A stretch of 64,000 bases of DNA, taken from NCBI GenBank assembly GCA_021794475.1, contig JAJYQS010000097.1, forward strand, positions 1-64,000. Reading direction: 5' to 3'. This DNA is from a bacterium (GTDB taxonomy: Bacteria; SZUA-79; Acidulodesulfobacterales; Acidulodesulfobacteraceae). A model generated the notes under the pieces. The model did not search any database and was not told the DNA's origin. It saw nothing but the letters and a program-made list of their open reading frames with translations. Positions within the stretch are counted from its first letter, which is position 1; every line of letters begins with the position of its first letter. Made by a program: the position numbers and the translations under genes. Shown here in pieces: positions 17,774-31,568 of this stretch.

Positions 17774-18265
17774 TTAATAAAATACAGGTTTTATTGTTTT
17801 TGCTATTAATTCGCCTGCCGTATTTTTAGATGCCGTTATATTTACGGTCTGTCCTTTTTTGTAGTCGGAACAAGAGGCTGCCTTCAAATTAACTCCGACG
17901 CCGCCATAGCATACCGTTGAACTGTTTATTTCAAAAAGCAGAGGTGTTGTTCTGCCTGATAATTTTAATGCCGAATTATTTATAGTAATGATTGTCCCTG
18001 TATAAAAAAGAGTATTTTTATGGAATAATGGAAGCGGACCGACAATATGAGGCGCAGCGGCTTCAGAGTTAGACAAAAACAATGATGATGCCGCCGCAAA
18101 AAGAAATGCGAGAAGTATTAAGAAGACGGATGCAGGTTTAATTTTATTTAATATAAAATCTTTAATGCCGGATTTATTATTATTAAAATTTTTTATGTTT
18201 TTCGTATTATTATTATGTCTGTCATTTTTATTGTTTTGAATATTTTTTATTTTTATTATACGCAT
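17774..18265 (-). CDS. Small exported two-cysteine protein associated with pilY1 (left copy)
   Basis: Function unknown. A strong AAGGAG lies 8 nt before the ATG, so the unusual N-terminus is real: about 43 Asn/Lys-rich residues, then a hydrophobic segment (residues 45-67) ending in SEAAA, probably a signal peptide or anchor. The mature part of about 95 residues reads as beta strands: LFYTGTIITINNSALKL, INSSTVC, a second Cys in AASCSDYKKGQ, then GELIAKTIKPVFY. It is clearly related to the protein at 29353-29748 (shared pattern: G-I-I-x-I-N, INSST-x-C, D/S-C, LIA-x-x-I-x-x-x-F). The pattern recalls DUF5666-like small beta domains, but with an added Cys pair that could form a disulfide. It follows the left pilY1 gene by 162 bp on the same strand. 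Confidence 0.75.
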   Translation of the reverse strand: MRIIKIKNIQNNKNDRHNNNTKNIKNFNNNKSGIKDFILNKIKPASVFLILLAFLFAAASSLFLSNSEAAAPHIVGPLPLFHKNTLFYTGTIITINNSALKLSGRTTPLLFEINSSTVCYGGVGVNLKAASCSDYKKGQTVNITASKNTAGELIAKTIKPVFY

Positions 18266-18427
18266 TGAAACATCTCCTTACTGATTTAATTTAACAATAA
18301 ATTAATCATATGTATTTATTGTAGTCATATTTATATTATAAAATGATTCGCTTTAGCTGAACATACATAATATATCTGCATAACTGTATATTAGTATATA
18401 ATTTTTTATATATAAGTCATATAATTT

Positions 18428-21400
18428 TTAAGGTTCTTCAAACCATGAAGTAGGAGTCACCTTAGACGGCAGCGCCGGTATCTGCTGTCTGAAAACTTTG
18501 CCGGTCGATGTAGTTACGCCAAGATAATTATTAGCTATAGTAGGCGCAGATGCAACGCCTGAACCCACAACCGTTGATTGAACAGCGCCGCTGGACGCGG
18601 TTGCATTATTTATTATCGAAATAGTTCCGGAAGTTGAAACCAATATTGTGCCGCCGCCGTTAAGATAGCTTAAAGCGTACAGCCTTGACGTTCCGTAACC
18701 GCAGGCGTCCTGAACGGATGATGGAGTAAATGTCGTGAAATAAACTATGCCGTCGTAAACCGACGGCGCCGATGTCACTTTTTCTCCCTGAGATAACGTT
18801 ATATACCACCCGTCCGCCGCTTGAACATTTGATAAATTCGTAGTAGAACCGCTCACGCCGGTCTGATTGTAAAGATCCGATTCGTTGATTGGACCGCTTG
18901 CAGGACAAGTTAACGGACCGCCTATTCGTGAAGTACTGGCATTAATTGCTATAAATTCATTATTTCTCGATGTGTTTACTTCATTTAAATCTTCCCTGTT
19001 TCCGGTGCCGAAAAAGATCCAGAAGTTGCCTAACGTATCTGTTGCAGCTGCCGGTGAAAAGAAAATGTTTAACGGATCGGCGGTTGAAGCATTAGAATCA
19101 AAAACCCTGCAGGCATCCCAATTTGATGTGCCGTTAGACTTATAAGGCGATGTATCGTCAGGTATATCGACCGACCATAATTGACCGCCTAAATCCCCGG
19201 CATAAAAACCTTCGGTTCTAAAATTCTGGCTTAATACCGGCGTAATTGAAGACGGTATAGAATATTTCATATTTGAATCATTTGACGAACTAAATTCCCA
19301 TAAAATCTGCTTGTCAACATAGTTAGGAGCGGCAGACGTTCCGGTATTTACGGGATTCGGTTCTGCATACAGCGCATAAAGCGCATCTCCTAAGCTGTTG
19401 TTCGACGAATACCCTCCGCCTATAAAAGCGGTGTAAGTTTTTATATATTGCGGAGGCAATAACGGACTTGCGGGGTCTGGATTATTGCCGCAAGCCCCCA
19501 CTTCTCCGTTTGTTTTTGAATAGTCCGGATTTGGCAGACATACATAAGATATATAAGGCTTAGACCAAGTATTACCCATTGAACTGTCGGTAATATTCCA
19601 TAACGGATCGGGGTAAGACGAAAGATTTGAAGGATTGGTAACCCCCAATGCATAATAATATGTTCCGCCGTTTCTTTCGCCGCCTATTAAAACAGAGTGC
19701 CAGCTGTTCTGCAGACTGTTTTGGTTTATAGAATATTCTGAGCTGCTGACCGGATTAATTTCGGGAGATTCAACAGTTTCCGCTCCTCCGCTCACATAAT
19801 CGGGAAATATATTGTTAAAGAAAACGTCCGATGCATCCGGCGTAGAATCGACGAATTCTGGAAAATTTAGCGCTGTTCCTACCCCTATCGAACTGTCGTA
19901 CCATGAGGTTACTTTTGGCAGCAGATTTGGAGGAATATAACCGAAAGCTTCCGTACCTAAAACTTCCGTACCTGTTCCGTAATTGTAAGAATTAGTCGTA
20001 CTGTCCCATATTGCGGCGTTAAAGGCATGAAGCATACCGTCGTTAGCGCCTACGTAAAGCACCTCGTTCCTTGGTTTTGTGACAGTGTAATACTGTTTAA
20101 ACGTCTGATAAGATTTGCTTGAATACGGAAAAGGCGGCGGACCGACCAAAACCGGATTAGAATGGAATATAGCGCCTAGCTTCCAGTTATCAGTGGATGA
20201 ATCAGGGTTTAAAACAAAATTTAAAATATCCGACGCGCAAGCCGATGCCGATGTTGAACATGGACAGATTGTACCGTAGTAATCAGGGCTTGTACTGTCG
20301 GAGCTTATATTAAGCATACTGTCTAAATTGCTGTTGCCGCTGCTTGTACTTACGGGATTTATGTCAATTGTTTGCTGTTCTCCCGTGGAAGGATTTAAAT
20401 AAGACGTTAAAACGGTCCTCGAAGTTGGCGATTCTGTTTTAAGGAGACCCCCTGCCCCGTTTCCGTCATCCCAGTAAGAGTCGCTGGTAATTATCTGCCC
20501 GTTTGCTCCTACAGCCGGACCGTAAGGACCGACAAGCTCGTCTTGGGCATTTAAACCGAAAAGATAAATATTACCTTCGCCCCAAAGCGGCTGGTTTAAA
20601 GATTTGAAATTTGTGTAATATACATACTGTTGATTAGATGTTTCATTTACGACGGGAGACGTAAAAGAAGCGGTTTGTTTTTCAATCTGATTAAATATTG
20701 TTGTCAGAGAAGACTGCAGCTCGTTTAAGTTGTATGCAAGGTAAACAGTGCCGGACAAAGTAAGAGGATTTGCCGGAGAAGCAAGAGAATTTGACAGAAG
20801 AATCTCGTTAGAATCAGGATAAACGGCTGTAATCGTTGCGCACTGAAATCCGTCTGCATAAGAACCGCTGTCGTTATTATTGGTTTCGCAATCTGAAGAC
20901 TGCCAGCCGTTATCGGAGATTGTATCTCCTATCTGCACGCCGTTAGTTGTTCCGAACAGCGACGGAGGAATCTGCAGGAGCGTTCCGGCAGTATTTTCTG
21001 CCGTAGCGGAAATATTAGGTATCCCGTTAAGATATACGGGATTATTTATTGTACCCGGATTAATTCCTACGCCTGCGTTTGCGACCTCCTGAATATATGT
21101 TCCGCTGCCTACGTTATTTGCATAACCGAATCCGATAATAAAAAGTTCTATGGGATACGAGGAGTCTAAATTGTATAAGTCGTAAACCTCCTGAGGGGTT
21201 TCGGAAGACGGAATGCCGTTTGGAGAATTTCCGCCGTTCACGCATAACCTGCTGCCGTAATTACTGTTGTCTGTGTAAATATTAAGAGGAGAAGACGGAA
21301 CGTCGAGCGGTGACCAATCACAGCCGTCGTTGGCTTCGCCGTCCGTTATAATTATAGAAAAATTTCTTCTGCATGCTTTTGCGGAATCCGCCTGCAGCGA

Positions 21401-22540
21401 ATTTTGAAAATATCCGTACATATCGGCAACGGAATCTGCCGTCGGCGTTCCGCCTCCCGCTTTTAATCCGGAAATAACATTTCCGTCGGGGTCAAGAGCG
21501 TTGCTGCCGTAAATAGGGGCTTTCCACAGAAGCCAGTTTATTGCGTTAGACGCTATTTTAGCCGGTTCAAAATAAGGGTCTGTACTGTTTGTCGTGTTCG
21601 CTCCCGCAGGTACCGTGTCGGTATTATTTAAAGGATTTAAAGTACCGTCGGTGCTTAAAGGCACGTAAACTACCCAAGGGCTTGCCCATGTTATAGAAGG
21701 CTCTCCTTCCGGCGCCTCGCCGCTGTAATCGTAAGAAATAAAATAATATGTAGTTCCGTTATCGTTAATCGTATTGGGACATCCGGCATAACCGTTTATA
21801 GAAACAGACTGCCATCCATAATTATAGCCATAATTTAAATAATTGTTTAAAGTGAGTATATAATTATTTCCCGAACCGCCGTAATAAAACAGTGCGAAAG
21901 GATAATTCGGATTATTATAGTAATCCAATCTGCCGGTTTCGTTCGGCGTGCCGTCGGCCGTAGTACCCAGTACGGCATAATACGGCGCATCAGCAGTATT
22001 CTGAAACGACTCATCATCAGAATAAACGCACATATTTTCTCGTCCGCCCGGAGTTATAGTCTGAGTCTGGTGATTTAGAGTCCCGAAAATCTGCTGGAAT
22101 GAAGCAAATGCAAAATTTAAATTTGAAAATTCCGGACTGTTTACTATATTGCTTATAGCCAATTTTGCGTTATATATTTTTGAAAACATAGAATTTGAAC
22201 CCGGCGCCCAAACATATGAAAACTGCTCATTAGTGTGATTAGCATTCCACGTTCTTGCCCAGCTTTCAGGTCTGTCATATCCGCTCGATGATGAATTTTT
22301 CCAATAAACGTCTTTATTCCACATCATCGAACCGGATGTGTCTAAAAATATCATTACATTCGGGTTATTAACATTTGTAAGAAACGATGTGTCGGAAGCG
22401 TAAGCCGGACTTAAGCCGTACATTCCGGTAACAGCGGCGCCTATAATTATGGTAATTATAAAAAGAAAAAGTATTAAAACGTTTCTGTATATCAATTTGA
22501 GCATTAACATCCTAAAGCCGTATATTATTTTTTGTTGCAT
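18428..22540 (-). CDS. pilY1: PilY1-like type IV pilus tip adhesin with intact vWA MIDAS (left copy)
   Basis: Large secreted protein (1370 residues) of the PilY1 family, which caps type IV pili and can sense surfaces. Signal peptide to about residue 48 (SPAYA|SDTS). The von Willebrand A domain carries DTSGS (67-71), a Thr-bearing loop GGGTPTADS (362-370) and IITDGEAND (397-405), so all three metal-ion-dependent adhesion site elements are present. The C-terminal half is the PilY1 beta-propeller with VGANDGMLHAFNA and LIGGERNGGTYYYALGVTNP. Several Cys residues suggest disulfides. AGGGAG precedes the ATG by 9 nt. It is divergent from pilV-pilW-pilX-pilY1 and strongly similar to the right copy in the propeller. 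Confidence 0.92.
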   Translation of the reverse strand: MQQKIIYGFRMLMLKLIYRNVLILFLFIITIIIGAAVTGMYGLSPAYASDTSFLTNVNNPNVMIFLDTSGSMMWNKDVYWKNSSSSGYDRPESWARTWNANHTNEQFSYVWAPGSNSMFSKIYNAKLAISNIVNSPEFSNLNFAFASFQQIFGTLNHQTQTITPGGRENMCVYSDDESFQNTADAPYYAVLGTTADGTPNETGRLDYYNNPNYPFALFYYGGSGNNYILTLNNYLNYGYNYGWQSVSINGYAGCPNTINDNGTTYYFISYDYSGEAPEGEPSITWASPWVVYVPLSTDGTLNPLNNTDTVPAGANTTNSTDPYFEPAKIASNAINWLLWKAPIYGSNALDPDGNVISGLKAGGGTPTADSVADMYGYFQNSLQADSAKACRRNFSIIITDGEANDGCDWSPLDVPSSPLNIYTDNSNYGSRLCVNGGNSPNGIPSSETPQEVYDLYNLDSSYPIELFIIGFGYANNVGSGTYIQEVANAGVGINPGTINNPVYLNGIPNISATAENTAGTLLQIPPSLFGTTNGVQIGDTISDNGWQSSDCETNNNDSGSYADGFQCATITAVYPDSNEILLSNSLASPANPLTLSGTVYLAYNLNELQSSLTTIFNQIEKQTASFTSPVVNETSNQQYVYYTNFKSLNQPLWGEGNIYLFGLNAQDELVGPYGPAVGANGQIITSDSYWDDGNGAGGLLKTESPTSRTVLTSYLNPSTGEQQTIDINPVSTSSGNSNLDSMLNISSDSTSPDYYGTICPCSTSASACASDILNFVLNPDSSTDNWKLGAIFHSNPVLVGPPPFPYSSKSYQTFKQYYTVTKPRNEVLYVGANDGMLHAFNAAIWDSTTNSYNYGTGTEVLGTEAFGYIPPNLLPKVTSWYDSSIGVGTALNFPEFVDSTPDASDVFFNNIFPDYVSGGAETVESPEINPVSSSEYSINQNSLQNSWHSVLIGGERNGGTYYYALGVTNPSNLSSYPDPLWNITDSSMGNTWSKPYISYVCLPNPDYSKTNGEVGACGNNPDPASPLLPPQYIKTYTAFIGGGYSSNNSLGDALYALYAEPNPVNTGTSAAPNYVDKQILWEFSSSNDSNMKYSIPSSITPVLSQNFRTEGFYAGDLGGQLWSVDIPDDTSPYKSNGTSNWDACRVFDSNASTADPLNIFFSPAAATDTLGNFWIFFGTGNREDLNEVNTSRNNEFIAINASTSRIGGPLTCPASGPINESDLYNQTGVSGSTTNLSNVQAADGWYITLSQGEKVTSAPSVYDGIVYFTTFTPSSVQDACGYGTSRLYALSYLNGGGTILVSTSGTISIINNATASSGAVQSTVVGSGVASAPTIANNYLGVTTSTGKVFRQQIPALPSKVTPTSWFEEP

Positions 22541-22780
22541 AATAGCGCACTCCCTACGCCTCGTATACTATCGTACTTTTAAGTTATCATACTTCTAAAT
22601 TTATTGATTGCCTAATAACTAATACTTAAAATAACCTAATGAAATATTAATAAAATATAAATATTCCAAATATTAAAAATAAAAATGTATATCATATATA
22701 TTTTAGAGCCATATTGCACTGCGCCGCATATTTATATAATATATATAATATATTTACACTGTATTATATTATTGTATTAT

Positions 22781-22817
22781 ATCATAAATTGCAGTATGCA
22801 ATTGTTTAATTTATGAT
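22781..22817. repeat. Inverted repeat in the pilY1/pilV divergent region
   Basis: ATCATAAATT (22781-22790) is perfectly complementary to AATTTATGAT (22808-22817); a second palindrome TTGCA-GTA-TGCAA overlaps the left arm. A run of six T follows the right arm. It could be an operator for the divergent pair or a weak terminator of a leader transcript. Confidence 0.45.
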
Positions 22818-22910
22818 TTTTTACTGACGATTATGACATAACATAAATTTTAAAATAATTGAACTGATTTAGCGGATTACGTTATTTGTATATGTATATT
22901 GTAAAATTAC

Positions 22911-22939
22911 TTGACGGCTTACAATGTTTAAGGTAATAT
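22911..22939 (+). promoter_or_regulatory. Candidate sigma70 promoter of pilV-pilW-pilX-pilY1
   Basis: TTGACG, 17-nt spacer, TAATAT: a 5/6 match to -35 and 4/6 to -10 with ideal spacing, about 80 bp before the pilV ATG. No sigma54-type GG/GC element was noticed. Confidence 0.4.
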
Positions 22940-23021
22940 GTATTATATTGGTAAATATAAGTTAAAGTAGTAATGTATTTAAAATTATCTAAATTAAATA
23001 TTACAATATTTTTAATGAACC

Positions 23022-23513
23022 ATGATAAACAATAATGCCGGAGAATCGCTTCTTGAAGTTATGATCGCAATGCTAATATTGACTTTTGCTTTTCTGGGCG
23101 TTATGGCTCTGTCGATTTCTCTGCTTGACAACAACAGTCTTGCCGGTAAGACAAATTTTGCGACTAATATAGCTCAAATGGAAGTCAGCCAGCTGAATTG
23201 TCTCGGAGTTACAAATGTCACAAGGGATTTTGGAGTTCCTAGTACATACTCTTACACAGTTTCGCCTGTTATTTTGACTCCGGATACAAGAAACACAATA
23301 AAAGCGTGTATAAATCCCGCACTGGCGGTTGGAGGTCCTCAGCCGGCGGGTTTATTGTCAGCAGGTGGCATCGGTATTACTAATACATATTTGGTTACTA
23401 TAACTTTGGCTGCAAATCCTAATGCTAATACTACCGGCGCTGTTGATGCCACGGTTGATGTTTCGTGGGACAGCGGACACCATGTTATAGTAATGGACGA
23501 CATTATCGCATAA
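23022..23513 (+). CDS. pilV: Type IV pilus minor pilin PilV
   Basis: Minor pilin that helps prime pilus assembly and present the tip adhesin. Type III prepilin leader of only seven residues: cleavage expected after G7, giving E-S-L-L-E with the conserved Glu at +5, followed by a hydrophobic helix (VMIAMLILTFAFLGVMAL). The rest of the 163 residues is a small globular domain with two cysteines (QLNCLG, KACINP). First gene of a run pilV-pilW-pilX-pilY1 on the plus strand. The name rests on motif, size and position; sequence identity with PilV of other groups is weak by eye. Confidence 0.82.
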   Translation: MINNNAGESLLEVMIAMLILTFAFLGVMALSISLLDNNSLAGKTNFATNIAQMEVSQLNCLGVTNVTRDFGVPSTYSYTVSPVILTPDTRNTIKACINPALAVGGPQPAGLLSAGGIGITNTYLVTITLAANPNANTTGAVDATVDVSWDSGHHVIVMDDIIA

Positions 23514-23663
23514 TACTACTGCGCCTACATATAATTGTTATTATTATTTTTTAATCAGGCGGATTTTATTTTATTAGAGTTTGTAATATATTTTTATTAT
23601 AATTTAATTTTAATTTATATGTAAATTTAGCTACTTATAGTATTTATATTAGGATAAACATTT

Positions 23664-24788
23664 ATGCTAAAAAAAGGCTTATTAAAAAATAGAATTCGGA
23701 AATTCCGTACATCATTTGAAAGCAGCCGCATTTTAAACAATGACGGGTTGACATTAATAGAATTGATTATATCGCTGGTAATATCTCTAATAGTTGTCGG
23801 AGCCGCTTATTTTATACTATTAAATCAGTCCGGCGTGTTTAGAACTACCAGAGCCGTGTCTAAGGAACAGCAGCGGCTCTTAATCTCATATAATGCCGTT
23901 AAATATTCTTTAAGAATGGCAGGTTTTGATTACGGGCAAAATTATTTTAATCAATCAGGGGCTGTGCCGCCGGTACAGACGATGCAGGCAAATTATCCTA
24001 ATAATCCTTACGAACTCTTAGTTAGCTACGGAACGGTAGTTGACGGAGCAAATCCGTGTATTCTGACAGGTGTTGCGAATCCAAATGGAGCAGGTCCATC
24101 TTCAGAATTTACTCCTTCAAGCTCCTGTAATATTGCAGATTTTCATAAATATGAAATTTTGAATATTATTAATCCGGTTGCCAATGCGTCAGGAAATGTA
24201 CCTGCCCCTCCGATAACACTATGTATAACGCATATTACGGCCGGCAAGATTCAGGTGAATCCGGGAGCAGGCGGAGTGTGCCCCGCTAATCCAGTGTCGC
24301 CGAAAGATATTAGCAGCGGGCAGGTTTCGGCGATACAGCAGGTTCTGTATTATTGGGGCAGCGCGAATTATAATTTTAATCCGCCGTGGAATCAACCCGG
24401 GAATTTATACGAATGTCAGGTTAATCCAGCCGTGACAGAGCCGGGACAGTATTCTCCCGCTACTGTGACGACATATAGCGCACCCCAATGCGTACCAGAT
24501 ACCACAATATTACTAGACGGATATATAAATAATTTCAGCGTTGTGCCTGTCGCGGGGAATGTTAACACTTCCTATAGCGTGCCGCAGCCCTACCTCTACA
24601 TTTTATCGCTGACCGGGGAATCAGACGTCGCCCTGTCAGATTCCCCTGCTTACAGCATTCATGTTCCTTACAATGCTAATGCGGCAGGCGCAGCCGCTAA
24701 AGGTCAGGCAGGTCAGGTCGTAGGAAATAATATATTAGCAGATTTCAGTTCTAATGTTTTTTTGAGGAATGTCTATTATGGAAGTTAA
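23664..24788 (+). CDS. pilW: Type IV pilus minor pilin PilW
   Basis: Large minor pilin (374 residues). The leader ends at G28 (LNNDG|LTLIE) with Glu at +5 and a long hydrophobic helix LIISLVISLIVVGAAYFILL. The body is rich in Pro, Asn and Gly and holds pairs of cysteines (NPCILTG, SSCNIADF, GVCPANP, YECQVNP, PQCVPD), as expected for exported disulfide-bonded pilins. A weak AGGA lies upstream of the ATG, and 150 bp separate it from pilV. Its 3' end overlaps the pilX start by 11 bp, which suggests translational coupling. Confidence 0.84.
   Translation: MLKKGLLKNRIRKFRTSFESSRILNNDGLTLIELIISLVISLIVVGAAYFILLNQSGVFRTTRAVSKEQQRLLISYNAVKYSLRMAGFDYGQNYFNQSGAVPPVQTMQANYPNNPYELLVSYGTVVDGANPCILTGVANPNGAGPSSEFTPSSSCNIADFHKYEILNIINPVANASGNVPAPPITLCITHITAGKIQVNPGAGGVCPANPVSPKDISSGQVSAIQQVLYYWGSANYNFNPPWNQPGNLYECQVNPAVTEPGQYSPATVTTYSAPQCVPDTTILLDGYINNFSVVPVAGNVNTSYSVPQPYLYILSLTGESDVALSDSPAYSIHVPYNANAAGAAAKGQAGQVVGNNILADFSSNVFLRNVYYGS
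24764..24768 (+). promoter_or_regulatory. Ribosome-binding site that decides the pilX start
   Basis: GAGGA lies directly against an ATG at 24769 but nine bases before the ATG at 24778. Spacing therefore favours the second ATG (protein begins MEVKITSK). Confidence 0.65.
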
Positions 24789-25320
24789 AATCACATCAAA
24801 ATACCATGGAATTAAAAACAGCGACGGCGTAGCTTTGATTACTGTTTTGCTGATGATAGTCATACTAAGTATTATCGCAGCTGTTGCTATTGGAACATCA
24901 GGATCTGATATTATAAGCGCCGGTAAGAATTCAATAACCGTTTATACTTTCAATACCGCAAATTCAGGCATGGATATGGTGTTATCGCAGATTGGCACTT
25001 ATCAGGGCACAAACAATGGGGTTGGTATGCCAACCTCGGGACTTTTTTATTATACTGTTGACAATAACAATACTGTACAGACAGGACCTAATTTTGTTGA
25101 ACTTAATACGTCAAATATAAATCCCTCAGTTTCAAATATTTTGACTGATTTTAGCGGACAAATCGGTTTTGAGTATAGCGGGACATATGGTCCTATGCCA
25201 GGGTACGGTTCAAATTATTATTTTTACAAAGGACAGATAAATGTTATAGCTCAGAAAGGTTCAAACACAGCGAAGTCTGGAATGACGTTTGATTATGGTC
25301 CGAATAAATTGGGCTACTAA
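24778..25320 (+). CDS. pilX: Type IV pilus minor pilin PilX
   Basis: PilX/GspK-type minor pilin, 180 residues. Prepilin motif SDG|VALITVLLMIVILSI with cleavage after G17; as in other PilX proteins Glu is missing at +5. The helix continues with AAVAIGTSGSDIISAGKN, then a small Gly/Tyr-rich domain without cysteines. The second in-frame ATG is chosen because its distance to GAGGA is correct. It overlaps pilW and is followed after 122 bp by the right-hand pilY1, fitting the PilV-W-X-Y tip complex. Confidence 0.83.
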   Translation: MEVKITSKYHGIKNSDGVALITVLLMIVILSIIAAVAIGTSGSDIISAGKNSITVYTFNTANSGMDMVLSQIGTYQGTNNGVGMPTSGLFYYTVDNNNTVQTGPNFVELNTSNINPSVSNILTDFSGQIGFEYSGTYGPMPGYGSNYYFYKGQINVIAQKGSNTAKSGMTFDYGPNKLGY

Positions 25321-25442
25321 ATTTTATAACATGAATTTTAAGAAAATAAGTAAAAGACAAGTAAACATATAATTTAAATATTGCATGGGGCGCAAAAATT
25401 ATATTCAAAAATATAATATTTTAATAGCGGGAGTAAAACAAG

Positions 25443-28400
25443 ATGAAGATAGTCTTGACTTATAAAAAAATTTATTTATTTATTATTTTTATTGCTTTAA
25501 GTTATTTTATTTTTATGCCGAATGTCTATGCCGGCGACTCTTCGCTGCTAACTAATACAAACAATCCTAATGTTCTAATATTCCTTGACACCTCAGGCTC
25601 TATGAATTTAAATGAAGGCGTGCACTGGGACAACACTTCTTCCGGAAAAACCGGATATGACAGCCCCGAGGGCTGGGCAGGCGGTAATTTACTTAATATA
25701 ACTACGGCATCTCCATTTCCGACGTTTACATTTGCTCCGGGCGGAAACAGCGTTTTTTCAATGTTGTATAATGCTAAAGCGGCTATATCTGATATCGTCG
25801 GCGACCCTTCTTTTTCTAATGTTAATTTTGCGTTCGCCACATTTGACCAGGAGCCTTATATACCTATTATGGGTCCTATACGCAACATTATGGCTAGTCT
25901 TACTCCTGAATGCACATATACCGACGATCCGACGTTTACTAATCCGCCCACGGCTTTATATAATCCAGAGAATTTTGGCGGAGACGGTATTCCGGATGAA
26001 ACGGGAGATTTTTATACAAATTTTAATATATTAGGCGTAAGCATACCTGCACTTAACCTGAATTATCCGTTTATGACTTTTACAACGCTTGATCTTGAGT
26101 CTTTGGGATTGCCGGTTAACGGCTGCCCAAACAGTTTTGATCTTATACCATTTATCGGTCCTAAAGAATATTTGATGTCATATGATTATTCTTCAATTTA
26201 TAACCAGTTTTTCAGTCTTTTCGGATTAATTAATCTTCCTTGGAATTTATATGTTCCTACGACAACCGATAATAATTTAAATATTCTTACTAATGAAACA
26301 GTAACGTCTAACCCGAATAATACCGACGACCCTTATTTCGACCCGGCAGATATTGCCGGACCGGCTATCAATTATGTTTTGTGGAAAGCTCATATTTACC
26401 CAGATTTAGATAATCCTGCCGGAAATCCGGTAAGCGGTTTGAAGGCGGGCGGACTTAATGTTATGAATCAGATGGTCGGACATATGCAAAGCTATTTCAG
26501 AAATTCGCTAATTGCCGACAGCGGAGCGTCATGCCGCAGAAATTATTCCATTATTATAACTAACGGTTCTTTTACCGGTTTTAACGGCGGTCAGACGCCG
26601 TCAAAAATTTACCAGTTATATAAAGACATAGATCCGGCGCACCCTATCGAAACATTTATGATCGGATTCGGCTATCCGTCAGGTTTGCTTGCGCCTAATT
26701 ATATCCAGCTTGCGGCAAATGCCGGCGCAGGTATTAATCCTAGTACGAACCCTAACGGTATTATATTTTCCGCAACGTTAAACAATTCAAAATTATTAGT
26801 TCTGCCGTCTGCCGCTTTTGCTTCAATAGGCGGCGTACTGCTGGGCGACACCGTTTCCGATAATAAGTACACAAGTTTGGAATGCGAGGCCAATAATTAT
26901 ACAGGTGTTTATACGGACGGTTCTGATTGCGCAACTATTGTCGGAATATATCCTAATTCGCAGGAGATATTGCTGTCTAATTCACTTGCATCAAGTTTTA
27001 ACGGCGGCAACGTAACCGTTTCCGGAACAGTTTATCTGCCTTATAACCAGCTGGAATTACGTAATTCACTGGGTAAAATATTCAATCTTATAGAATCCGG
27101 AACGGTGGCCTCTTTTACTTCTCCTGTAATTCATGATGTTTACGGTTCCAACAACGATGTATATTATTCCAATTTGACCGCATATACGCAGCCGTTATGG
27201 GGTGAAGGAAATATTTTTCTCTTTAAATTAAATAATCAAGGACAATTGATAGGTCGTGACGGCTCCGCAGTAAATTCGTACGGACAGATAATTACCAGCG
27301 ACTCTTACTGGGATAGCGGAGCCGGAGCCGGCGGAGAACTGCAGACAGAATCGGGTTCGCACAGAAAGGTATTAACGTCGTATATAAGCCAGTCAACCGG
27401 CGGGCAGCAGTCTATTGATATAAATCCTGTAAGCACTAGCAGTTCTAATGCAAATCTGGATACAATGCTTGATATAAATTCGAATAGTTCAAGCCAGAAT
27501 TATTATGGAACAGTATGTCCAGGTTCAGCTTCTGCCGCCGCCTGCGCAACAGATATTTTAAATTTTGTTTTAGATCCGGATTCTTCCACGGATCACTGGA
27601 AGCTGGGCGCAATATTTCATTCTGACCCTGTTTTAGTAGGTCCGCCGCCTTTCCCTTATACCAGTCCATCGTATATCAGTTTTAAACAGCTATATGCGGA
27701 GCGTAATCAGGTATTGCTGGTTGGGGCAAACGACGGCATGCTTCACGGGTTCGATGCCGGCAGTTGGGACAGTTTAACTGATTCATATACAAATGGTACG
27801 GGCGCGGAACTTTTCGGATATATTCCGCCTAATTTGCTTCCTAAAATAACCGATTGGTATGACAGTTCAATCGGAATCAGGACATTAATTTTTCCGGAAT
27901 TCGTGGATTCCACGCCGGCGGTGGGAGACGTATATTTTAATGATGTATTTAACGGGCAGGTTAATCACATTAATACTGCGACAAATCCTGATTCTATAGA
28001 CCAGTGGCATACGGAATTGATATCAGGTGAGAGAAACGGCGGGAATTATTATTTTGCGTTGGGTGTTACTAATCCTTCTGACTTAAATAATCCAAACAAT
28101 CCATATCCGGACCCGCTTTGGAATATCACGGACGGCTCCTCAACAGCGCCCATGGGTAATACATGGTCGAAACCGGTAATATCATATGTATGCATGCCCA
28201 ATCCTTACTATTCATCTAAGTCTAAAAATTCAGAAGCAGGTGTTTGTCAGAATGATGCAAATCCGGCGCCTCCGCTGTTAGTACCGCAATATGTTAAAAC
28301 CTACCTCGGTTTTATAGGCGGAGGATATGCCGCTGAAGGTTCTACGGATGATACAGGAGCTGCCGTGTATGCTTTATATGCTGAACCTAATCCTGTAAAA

Positions 28401-29243
28401 AATAATTCAGGAGGCTATACTGACAATCAGATATTATGGAAATTTGATAGCTCAAACGATTCAAATATGACATTTCCGATACCGTCTGCAATTTCGCCTG
28501 TTCTCAGCCAGAATTTCAGAATGGAAGCATTTTATGCTGGTGATCTTGGAGGACAGATGTGGGCTTTTAATCTGCCTGATGACTCCTCTGCGTCAAATTG
28601 GAAAGGCTGCCGACTATTTGATTCAAATGAAACAGACCCTGCGTTAAATATTTACTTTCCGCCGACTCTTTCGTATGCCGCTTCAGGTAATTTATGGGTA
28701 TATTTCGGAACGGGCGACAGGGAAAATTTAACCGCATCTAATGCAAGAGATAATGAATTTATAGCTATTAATACCGGTTTAACCGCAGTCGGGGAATGTC
28801 CTTCGGGCGGACCGTTAAATGAATCGGATTTAGTAAATGCTACCGGAACAAGCGGTATTGGAACCGTAAGCGGAAACGGGTGGTATATTAAATTGTCAAC
28901 CGGAGAAAAGGTGGTGTCATCCCCGGTTGTATATAATAATATAGTATATTTCACAACATTTACGCCTCAGGGCGGCAGTTCGTGCGGATACGGGACTGCA
29001 AAACTTTATGCAGTGTATTATCTTGACGGGGGTGGTATGATTTCAACATCCGTATCGATTTCTAACAGTTCAGCATCATCTTCTAACGGTCAATCAATTA
29101 CTATAGGCGGCGGTGTGCCGTCCGCCCCTGAAATTTCCGGTAATAATTTAATCGTAACGACATCTACGGGAAAAGTTTTTACGAAAAAGATACCGGGTTC
29201 GCCCCAAATAATACCGACTTCATGGTTTCACACAAGAAACTGA
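25443..29243 (+). CDS. pilY1: PilY1-like pilus tip protein with degenerate MIDAS (right copy)
   Basis: 1266-residue paralogue of the left pilY1. Signal peptide ends at about residue 30 (NVYA|GDSS). DTSGS (49-53) of the von Willebrand A metal site is kept, but the Thr loop has become KAGGLNVMNQM (335-345), and the Asp loop reads IITNGSFTG with N374 in place of Asp; the segment after it is also shorter than in the left copy. The beta-propeller half is closely similar (VGANDGMLHGFDAG, WKLGAIFHSDPVLVGPPPFP). GGGAG is about 10 nt before the ATG. It lies downstream of pilX in the same orientation, so this copy is the one encoded with minor pilins. Confidence 0.92.
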   Translation: MKIVLTYKKIYLFIIFIALSYFIFMPNVYAGDSSLLTNTNNPNVLIFLDTSGSMNLNEGVHWDNTSSGKTGYDSPEGWAGGNLLNITTASPFPTFTFAPGGNSVFSMLYNAKAAISDIVGDPSFSNVNFAFATFDQEPYIPIMGPIRNIMASLTPECTYTDDPTFTNPPTALYNPENFGGDGIPDETGDFYTNFNILGVSIPALNLNYPFMTFTTLDLESLGLPVNGCPNSFDLIPFIGPKEYLMSYDYSSIYNQFFSLFGLINLPWNLYVPTTTDNNLNILTNETVTSNPNNTDDPYFDPADIAGPAINYVLWKAHIYPDLDNPAGNPVSGLKAGGLNVMNQMVGHMQSYFRNSLIADSGASCRRNYSIIITNGSFTGFNGGQTPSKIYQLYKDIDPAHPIETFMIGFGYPSGLLAPNYIQLAANAGAGINPSTNPNGIIFSATLNNSKLLVLPSAAFASIGGVLLGDTVSDNKYTSLECEANNYTGVYTDGSDCATIVGIYPNSQEILLSNSLASSFNGGNVTVSGTVYLPYNQLELRNSLGKIFNLIESGTVASFTSPVIHDVYGSNNDVYYSNLTAYTQPLWGEGNIFLFKLNNQGQLIGRDGSAVNSYGQIITSDSYWDSGAGAGGELQTESGSHRKVLTSYISQSTGGQQSIDINPVSTSSSNANLDTMLDINSNSSSQNYYGTVCPGSASAAACATDILNFVLDPDSSTDHWKLGAIFHSDPVLVGPPPFPYTSPSYISFKQLYAERNQVLLVGANDGMLHGFDAGSWDSLTDSYTNGTGAELFGYIPPNLLPKITDWYDSSIGIRTLIFPEFVDSTPAVGDVYFNDVFNGQVNHINTATNPDSIDQWHTELISGERNGGNYYFALGVTNPSDLNNPNNPYPDPLWNITDGSSTAPMGNTWSKPVISYVCMPNPYYSSKSKNSEAGVCQNDANPAPPLLVPQYVKTYLGFIGGGYAAEGSTDDTGAAVYALYAEPNPVKNNSGGYTDNQILWKFDSSNDSNMTFPIPSAISPVLSQNFRMEAFYAGDLGGQMWAFNLPDDSSASNWKGCRLFDSNETDPALNIYFPPTLSYAASGNLWVYFGTGDRENLTASNARDNEFIAINTGLTAVGECPSGGPLNESDLVNATGTSGIGTVSGNGWYIKLSTGEKVVSSPVVYNNIVYFTTFTPQGGSSCGYGTAKLYAVYYLDGGGMISTSVSISNSSASSSNGQSITIGGGVPSAPEISGNNLIVTTSTGKVFTKKIPGSPQIIPTSWFHTRN

Positions 29244-29352
29244 GTAATTTTTATATAAAATATGGGCTCAGGGCATTCTATGGAATCCGGGTCCATAACA
29301 GTATAAATAAATATATTATTGCATATAGCAAACAAAAACCTAGGAGCATAAA

Positions 29353-29748
29353 ATGATTAGTCAAATTGATTTTATGAGTTTATTGAAAAAGATTAAAATA
29401 TTTTCCGCGGTAACTTTTGCTTTATTATTATTAGTGATTATTAGCAATACCCGTCCTGCATATGCAGCATCTAAAAATACAAATATAGGCGTTTTAAAAA
29501 AATTAAAGCCTAAACAGACTTATTTTTTTTCCGGGATTATAACTAAAATAAATGCCGATTCGATAACATTATATGGCGGATTGACTATTGCTATCAATTC
29601 TTCGACTATATGCAAGACCTACAAGCTTAAAAATGGTTCCACAGGTGATTGTTCCATGCTTTTTAGGAATAAAGAAACTGTTGGAGTTGTTGCATTTAAA
29701 AACAATGGAAAATTAATAGCCGCAGAAATCAGACAGATGTTTTTCTAA
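29353..29748 (+). CDS. Small exported two-cysteine protein associated with pilY1 (right copy)
   Basis: Paralogue of the protein encoded at 17774-18265; function unknown. 131 residues: a signal peptide with hydrophobic residues 17-30 ending ARPAYA-like (TRPAYAASK), then about 95 residues of beta-rich sequence with FFSGIITKINADSITLYGG, INSSTICK, a second Cys in TGDCSML, and KLIAAEIRQMFF at the end. AGGAG precedes the ATG. It follows the right pilY1 by 109 bp, mirroring the other copy. Periplasmic or secreted; a chaperone or partner of PilY1 is a reasonable guess only. Confidence 0.76.
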   Translation: MISQIDFMSLLKKIKIFSAVTFALLLLVIISNTRPAYAASKNTNIGVLKKLKPKQTYFFSGIITKINADSITLYGGLTIAINSSTICKTYKLKNGSTGDCSMLFRNKETVGVVAFKNNGKLIAAEIRQMFF

Positions 29749-29867: not shown

Positions 29868-31133
29868 TTACACGGATACTATATTATTTTTGCCGTGTTT
29901 TTTCGCTGCATAAAGACATTTATCCAACCTATCCTGCAGCGATTGTTTAGTATCCTGTTCTTTTGTTGAAGTTACGCCGAAACTGCATGTAATTTTATTT
30001 CCGGATATGAATGTGTAGTTATCCAATAACCGTTGAAGTCTTTCGGAAAGTTCAACGGCATGTTTGACAGGCGACGCCGGACATATTATTATAAATTCGT
30101 CGCCGCCGTATCTTGTCAGTAAATCTGTTGTCCTTAAATTCTGCTTTATTAAATCAACCAATTCTTTTAAAATAGAGTCGCCTGCAAGATGACCTGAATT
30201 GTCATTTATTATTTTAAAATTATCTATATCGAACATAATAGCAGACGATACTACGTTAAATTTTTTATGATTAAAAATAATATTATTAATTTCCGCATCC
30301 AGTTTTCTTCTGTTGTAAGTATTTGTTAATCCGTCTATTTCAGATAATTTTTGATAATCTTCTTTTTCTTTGATAAGAGACTGTTCCTTTAAAATATCTG
30401 TGGTAACGTCGGTAAAAATACCAAGCCCTGCCCAGCCGCCGCCGTAATATACGGTAGTGGTATAAATATCGCCGTATATAGTTGTTCCGTCTTTTTTTCT
30501 TCCTTTTAAAATATATCTGGAATTAAATTTTTCACCATGGATCCTTTTTATTATTGAACTTTTTAATAAACTAATAGTTTCCTCGCTTTCTTCCATGACG
30601 TCGTTTATATACATGTTATAAAATATCTCTTTAGGATAACCGAATGCATCGGACATTGCCGAATTTACATAAATAAACTTTTCTTTGTATATAACCACGG
30701 GCGTTGGTATTTTATCAATAAGCATTTCAAATACAGACTGCTCTTTATCTAAGTCGCTTTTTAAATATAACAGTTCCGTAATATCAATAAAATTAATTGC
30801 ATTAACCTTTTTGCCGGCATAATTAATCGAGAATAGAGATAAATAAAGAAAAACATCGCGGTTGTTTTTTGATTCAATTTTAACAATTGTTGGTTTATTT
30901 TGAAGTTTATCGCCTGTTTTTTCGAATTCTATCAATTGTAGTATTGTATTTTTATCTTTGCTGTTTTTAAAGATATCTAAGAAATGTTTATTGCGCATCT
31001 CTTTAATTGAATAGCCCAAGATTTTTTCAGCTGCGGTGTTGCAGTATAAATATTTGTCGTCAAACATTGCAAAGCCGGAAATTAAATTATTGACAACATA
31101 TAAAATATTTTCATCAAATTCGAAATTATTCAT
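29868..31133 (-). CDS. Diguanylate cyclase with two PAS domains
   Basis: Cytoplasmic sensor-output protein making cyclic di-GMP. The ATG at 31133 is preferred to one eight codons upstream because GGGG lies six bases before it and the first has no ribosome site; this gives 421 residues. PAS 1 covers about 10-115, PAS 2 about 125-250 (VVIYKEKFIYVNSAMSDAFGY). The GGDEF domain starts near 260 (EIDGLTNTYNRRKLD) and has an intact RYGGDEF catalytic loop; the inhibitory site RTTD lies exactly five residues before GGDEF, so product feedback is likely. No membrane helix is seen. It converges on the right pilus-tip cassette, 119 bp away. Confidence 0.92.
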   Translation of the reverse strand: MNNFEFDENILYVVNNLISGFAMFDDKYLYCNTAAEKILGYSIKEMRNKHFLDIFKNSKDKNTILQLIEFEKTGDKLQNKPTIVKIESKNNRDVFLYLSLFSINYAGKKVNAINFIDITELLYLKSDLDKEQSVFEMLIDKIPTPVVIYKEKFIYVNSAMSDAFGYPKEIFYNMYINDVMEESEETISLLKSSIIKRIHGEKFNSRYILKGRKKDGTTIYGDIYTTTVYYGGGWAGLGIFTDVTTDILKEQSLIKEKEDYQKLSEIDGLTNTYNRRKLDAEINNIIFNHKKFNVVSSAIMFDIDNFKIINDNSGHLAGDSILKELVDLIKQNLRTTDLLTRYGGDEFIIICPASPVKHAVELSERLQRLLDNYTFISGNKITCSFGVTSTKEQDTKQSLQDRLDKCLYAAKKHGKNNIVSV

Positions 31134-31568
31134 ATTGCCCCTATATATAACATACATGAATTTATATTTATATAATGATACAATATTATATATTGCACAA
31201 ATTATTAATTATACTATAATAATATAATTCTTAGCAGAGGTCAAATTTTATAAGTTTATTTACTGCGACTTAGTTTATATATTTTATTGGCATATAAATT
31301 TCACATATTAATGTATGGCAAGAGTTGATAATTTAATATATGGTATATATAATAATAGTTTAAAGGTTTATAATTTTATAATTAAAATATAAAACAGATT
31401 GCGATGTAATTTATTGAAGTATTTTGATTATAAATTTCCGGTTGCATTTTATGTATATATCTTATATTATAAATTAACGAGGATTGGAATTTACGGAAAA
31501 TAGAAATAAACTCTCCGGTTGTTTTGCATTTTAAATTTAGATATGTTTGATTTAATTAGTAAAAAAAA
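31134..31568. other. AT-rich intergenic stretch between the diguanylate cyclase and a lipoprotein gene
   Basis: About 435 bp, divergent orientation, so promoters for both neighbours are expected here. I see no gene, hairpin or repeat that stands out from the AT-rich background. Confidence 0.5.

Follow-up and report, generated by a model that had tools for sequence, protein, structure and literature searches.

The 64,000-nucleotide stretch analysed here (the window) comes from an uncultured acid-mine-drainage bacterium of the Ca. Acidulodesulfobacterales (PMC6776010) and contains two pilY1 genes in mirrored arms, which point away from a 481-bp AT-rich divergent intergenic region (22541..23021, 21% GC). 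The left arm, on the minus strand, consists of PilY1-L (18428..22540) and, downstream of it, the gene of a small protein predicted to be exported, small-L (17774..18265). The right arm, on the plus strand, begins with genes for minor pilins resembling PilV (23022..23513), PilW (23664..24788) and PilX (24769..25320), and continues with PilY1-R (25443..29243) and small-R (29353..29748). The PilV-like and PilW-like ORFs carry the N-methylation motif, and the PilX-like product has a weak PilX_N match. A sigma70-like element, TTGACG-17-TAATAT, lies in the divergent gap on the plus strand (22911-22939). Beyond the right arm, on the minus strand, follows a PAS/GGDEF-like gene (29868-31157) that reads as a diguanylate cyclase type. 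All seven ORFs of the two arms are intact, and they bear out the first-pass annotation, which had described two cassettes of pilY1 plus a small-protein gene diverging from a shared gap, with pilV-pilW-pilX in the right arm only; PilY1-R has minor pilin genes in its operon and PilY1-L has none. Neither pilY1 nor the small gene occurs in further copies in the 1.83-Mb assembly, which is 92%-complete and consists of 111 contigs, with the locus on a single 109-kb contig; the mirrored junctions therefore rest on a fragmented assembly. Seven T2SSE-family ATPase matches in the genome, two of them side by side on contig C47, make a type IV pilus motor plausible.

The two PilY1 proteins are 51% identical from end to end, and both pass the PF05567 cut-off of 28.1 bits (31.7 and 31.6). 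PilY1-L combines an N-terminal vWA-type module, in which the MIDAS is complete (DTSGS, GGGT, TDG), with the C-terminal PilY1 propeller. In PilY1-R the DTSGS remains, but both the Thr of the loop and the Asp of TDG are missing (GGLN for GGGT, ITNG for ITDG), a degeneration that sets it apart from the other full-length DTSGSM-type PilY1s of the family. Because of these two lost positions, the two tips probably differ in what they bind. The canonical calcium-binding loop D-x-[DN]-x-[DN]-G was not found in either protein; this loop, a common rather than universal feature of PilY1s, occurs in 1 of 22 PilY1s from the window's taxonomic family (L071-L090), compared with 61 of 70 from Gammaproteobacteria.

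The related genomes G002-G005 have a single copy, to which PilY1-L and small-L are orthologous (94% identity to G003), and PilY1-L is under purifying selection, with a dN/dS of 0.17 relative to G003. PilY1-R forms a long branch that is sister to the genus copies, and no ortholog of it was found among 30 family genomes. A recent local duplication of the cassette is ruled out by the dS of about 2.7 between the two copies, by the long branch of PilY1-R and by the orthology of the left copy to those of the genus. Likewise, the low dN/dS and the intact ORFs rule out that PilY1-L is a decaying relic.

The mirrored layout was seen in the window genome only; its relatives carry a single cassette. Compared with G005, the segment 22898..25364, which holds pilV-pilW-pilX together with the promoter-like element and lies on the plus strand of the window, is inverted, and an extra segment extending from the inverted block to 31358 contains PilY1-R, small-R and the GGDEF-type gene. 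In G005 the block runs into the PilY1-L ortholog, with the same promoter-like element upstream of pilV; in G002 and G003 another pilVWX occupies this slot, and the flanks on either side are nearly identical. The flip and the extra segment relative to G005, along with the different pilVWX of G002 and G003, therefore identify the locus as a hypervariable cassette site. On our reading, the left pair is the vertically inherited copy of the genus and the right pair a divergent second tip module, found together with the GGDEF-type gene. With the shared pilVWX block flipped, PilY1-L is left without minor pilins in its own operon, and yet selection maintains it. The GGDEF-like gene is absent from G005, G002 and G003 and shares the extra segment with PilY1-R and small-R; in Pseudomonas, PilY1 is linked to signalling by c-di-GMP.

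Mirrored arms could also be an artefact, if assembly or binning had merged two strains, and the 111 contigs, the single cassette of the relatives and a PilY1-R that has no ortholog in 30 genomes would all fit such an origin. We consider it improbable, as the locus sits on one long contig whose flanks are 92-97% identical to G003 and whose pilVWX block is 86% identical to G005, and as every ORF is intact and dN/dS is low. It is very unlikely that the block acts as an invertible switch which would put the minor pilins now with PilY1-L, now with PilY1-R, even though in G005 it lies in the opposite orientation, promoter-like element included, and reads into the PilY1-L ortholog. At the boundaries of the block the longest exact inverted match is 9 bp, compared with 9.8 bp expected by chance, so that a reversible switch is not indicated; G005 has no PilY1-R to alternate with; and no dedicated invertase was found, the sole window recombinase noticed (38994) reading in sequence like a housekeeping XerC beside hslVU. 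Consequently, the earlier suggestion that the organism swaps its tip adhesins stands on the evolutionary scale, where relatives differ by exchanged cassettes, and is not supported as a description of a switch.

The small proteins encoded at the outer end of each arm are related to each other. They align in blastp (E=8e-10, 37% over 82 aa) and share the features to which the first-pass annotation had drawn attention: INSST-[VI]-C, a second Cys and LIA-x-x-I. Their resemblance exceeds what chance would give: a profile of the family matches them with E values of 2e-37 and 1e-42, both proteins being rows of that profile. All 15 of 15 family small proteins match DUF5666 (PF18914), and in 13 relatives' genomes the curated cut-off of 27 bits is exceeded; small-R falls just below it (24.4) and small-L well below (15.3). 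Elsewhere in the family genomes, away from the small gene, no DUF5666 was found. Neither window protein contains CxxCH or a cytochrome Pfam match. In one relative, G006, the small protein is followed downstream by another copy of itself, truncated at the N-terminus (L076 4977-5246 and 6167-6637).

Each of the two proteins has a hydrophobic N-terminal helix, by which export is predicted, followed by a domain of 75-80 residues. AlphaFold2 predicts for both a confident small beta barrel after the helix, with a core pLDDT above 90. Among the best matches of the small-R model to PDB folds are CusF and the crystal structure of P. aeruginosa PilY2 (3TDQ), with a probability of 1.00 and TM scores by target of 0.64-0.69; the small-L model finds generic OB folds, and PilY2 (3TDQ) is not in its top 50. 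A PDB sequence search with the A4 profile gave no match. Two cysteines are invariant in the 15-row family alignment; about 10-30 residues separate them, and there is no CxxC. The likeliest role for the pair is a single structural disulfide within the loop that precedes the C-terminal hairpin; in small-R this disulfide would join C87 and C100.

The association of the small gene with pilY1 extends beyond the window genome. A profile built from the two window proteins detected relatives in 20 of 61 genomes, all of which belong to the window's own taxonomic family. The 15-row profile, searched against 386 genomes, gave 22 matches in 20 family genomes, every one of which (22 of 22) adjoins pilY1, and, elsewhere, two more that are weak. 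Neither outcome that the first-pass annotation had named as refuting (matches mostly away from pilus genes, or a pair that fails to align) occurred, which supports its view of the small protein as a dedicated PilY1 neighbour. PilY1 is present in 24 of 30 family genomes, and in 20 of these 24 the small gene lies directly downstream, usually in the order pilV-pilW-pilX-pilY1-small on a single strand; G008, G021, G022 and G023 have PilY1 without it. These four PilY1s imply that the small protein is not universally required.

Presence or absence of the small gene follows the type of PilY1. It accompanies 17 of 17 full-length PilY1s with the N-terminal motif LD[TS]SGSM, both window copies counted, and 0 of 4 with LDNSQSM (Fisher p 2e-4, kinship ignored). 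The association recurs in the Gammaproteobacteria, a group independent of the acidophile family, where a DDSGS-type PilY1 was found at 25 of 30 loci with the small protein PilY2 and at 2 of 19 loci negative for it (p 6e-7, kinship ignored); the 19 negative loci had been picked before the N-termini were read. A natural experiment is provided by G021 and G026, whose DNA is 92% identical over the ssb-pilV stretch, 97% in pilX and 88-96% in the downstream flank. Their PilY1s are 65% identical at the C-terminus and show no alignment at the N-terminus, and the small gene goes with the N-terminus: it is absent from G021 (DNSQSM-type) and present in G026. Between this one pair of relatives, PilY1 and the small gene have been exchanged as a unit. 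The tip-adhesin exchange is clean in the comparison of the loci L086 and L090 of close relatives, which have near-identical minor pilins and flanks and unrelated PilY1 N-terminal halves. In the plasmid collection there were just 3 PilY1 matches, all weak.

The precedent for a small exported protein whose gene immediately follows pilY1 within a minor-pilin operon is PilY2 (PA4555; PF14481; 3TDQ) of Gammaproteobacteria, including Pseudomonas, so the belief of the first-pass annotation that no pilY1-linked family of this kind had been described needs revision: PilY2 occupies the same slot, probably with the same fold, and DUF5666 is the superfamily. A non-pilin known since 1996, PilY2 is absent from Neisseria (PMC10191384) and, according to secondary accounts of the work of Alm et al. 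(1996), is needed for piliation of P. aeruginosa (PMC2680260, PMC10191384). The literature searched contained no mechanism for PilY2 and nothing useful on the function of DUF5666.

Reading downstream of about 70 gammaproteobacterial pilY1 genes yielded 30 small exported proteins, many of them encoded between pilY1 and pilE. Since 16 of the 21 that were aligned match Pfam Fimbrial_PilY2 (PF14481) and their profile finds 3TDQ by sequence (E 2.4e-5), these are PilY2. Profiles of the mature domains of the acidophile small proteins and of PilY2 align in hhalign with 83% probability and a score of 29.2, compared with 8.7+-1.7 (maximum 15.1) for 200 column shuffles and at most 17.5 when real, unrelated segments were used (62 comparisons); with the signal regions included (A4 vs A3), the probability is 91.6%. 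The Pfam PilY2 model (PF14481) matches neither the window small proteins nor any relative's small protein, and we therefore do not file the acidophile proteins as PF14481 members. That they are homologous to PilY2 is probable but falls short of proof, because OB folds are common and small-L finds generic ones.

Besides its place in the operon, the small family shares with PilY2 an OB-like fold, as far as the models tell, a profile-profile probability of 83-92% and the tracking of one PilY1 N-terminal class. Unlike PilY2, it belongs to a different phylum, has two invariant cysteines, a pair that the PilY2 counterparts do not possess, is not followed by pilE in the family loci read, and has a partner PilY1 that carries DTSGSM instead of DDSGS and is without the usual calcium motif. 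The topology is the same as in DUF5666, although outside the window's taxonomic family DUF5666 is mostly found away from pilY1 and is often repeated in long proteins. The pilY1-downstream slot is not new, and PilY2 and DUF5666 limit the novelty of the family; what is new is the PilY1-class-specific pairing and its modular exchange. Taken together, the acidophile small proteins are of the DUF5666 type, sit in the same place as PilY2 and probably work like it.

Weighing this evidence, we lean towards a reading in which each arm supplies PilY1, the tip adhesin of a type IVa pilus, together with a periplasmic accessory specific to its PilY1 class, likely a folding or stability partner and the counterpart of PilY2. 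The small protein would be secreted together with PilY1 and would act in the periplasm on PilY1s carrying a particular N-terminal vWA-type module; we direct the proposed role at this module because it distinguishes the PilY1s that have a partner from those that have none. There it may help PilY1 to fold, to stay stable or to dock onto the minor pilins before the pilus extends. The model for such a role is TfcP of Myxococcus xanthus, a periplasmic accessory protein that is specific to PilY1.1, stabilises it and is not part of the pilus (PMC8833165). Like the small gene, tfcP lies in the cluster of one PilY1 and serves that type only; unlike the small protein, TfcP is a cytochrome c, is encoded upstream of pilY1.1 and has no sequence relation to the small family. 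TfcP works through calcium binding by PilY1, a route that is less likely here, given a canonical calcium loop in 1 of 22 family PilY1s and in neither window copy. Myxococcota also have several PilY1s per genome, differing mainly in the N-terminal module, within multiple minor-pilin/PilY1 clusters (PMC13190605), whereas the two window copies form a mirror image at a single locus, with one pilVWX set for both.

The small protein might instead belong stably to the structure of the tip, capping or wedging the vWA domain of PilY1 or the minor pilins, and leave the cell on the pilus. Its strict place after pilY1, its class-specific pairing and its predicted compact OB barrel, a fold that could equally suit a structural subunit, would agree with this; we nevertheless regard it as less likely, as TfcP, the one characterised accessory of such a kind, was not found in purified pili (PMC8833165) and four family PilY1s exist without the small protein. 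Little credence can be given to a CusF-type metal- or ligand-binding OB protein that would load or sense metal for the PilY1 MIDAS. CusF is indeed the top fold match, single members match it weakly in sequence and PilY1-L has kept its MIDAS, but the family alignment has no conserved Met/His/Trp set, neither window small protein has the Met-rich loop seen in some members, and PilY1-R has lost two MIDAS positions while its small protein was kept. Finally, the small protein can hardly be the disulfide or redox helper that had been proposed for it, since despite the two invariant cysteines, and the 12-26 cysteines of full-length PilY1s on which such a helper might act, it has widely spaced cysteines in place of a CxxC and a predicted OB rather than thioredoxin fold, and the PilY2 counterparts have no cysteine pair. 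Overall, the observations of the first-pass annotation are confirmed and its interpretation is supported in part.

For the favoured reading, an accessory matched to a PilY1 class, the wider interest lies in the finding that, in two groups of bacteria unrelated to each other, PilY2-type proteins track a single N-terminal class of PilY1. This tracking of one tip-adhesin type makes the job of PilY2 testable: the class association and the natural swap pair lead to the hypothesis that PilY2 serves the vWA module of PilY1, which, if true, would account for the need for PilY2 in some species but not in others. We further speculate, more doubtfully, that PilY2 and the DUF5666 small proteins might form one ancient superfamily of class-specific periplasmic OB-fold partners, each matched to a vWA module so that adhesin and partner are exchanged together, and that the window might hold two modules competing for one set of minor pilins.

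Small proteins of comparable kinds were also seen elsewhere. About nine DUF5666 repeats occur in long proteins (L226, L227) of genomes in which PilY1 gave no match at the threshold applied (G243, G102). Outside the family, DUF5666 adjoins PilY1 in 1 of 39 genomes that have the domain, G059, as a weak match; it is an exported DUF5666-like protein encoded directly downstream of PilY1 (L128 3740-4561). Small pilY1 neighbours in other phyla, scanned against Pfam, gave no confident family. In several other lineages small signal-peptide proteins with OB-like sequence patterns, none with a confident Pfam family, adjoin pilY1, downstream of it in L122, L125, L130 and L143 and upstream in L129 and L139.
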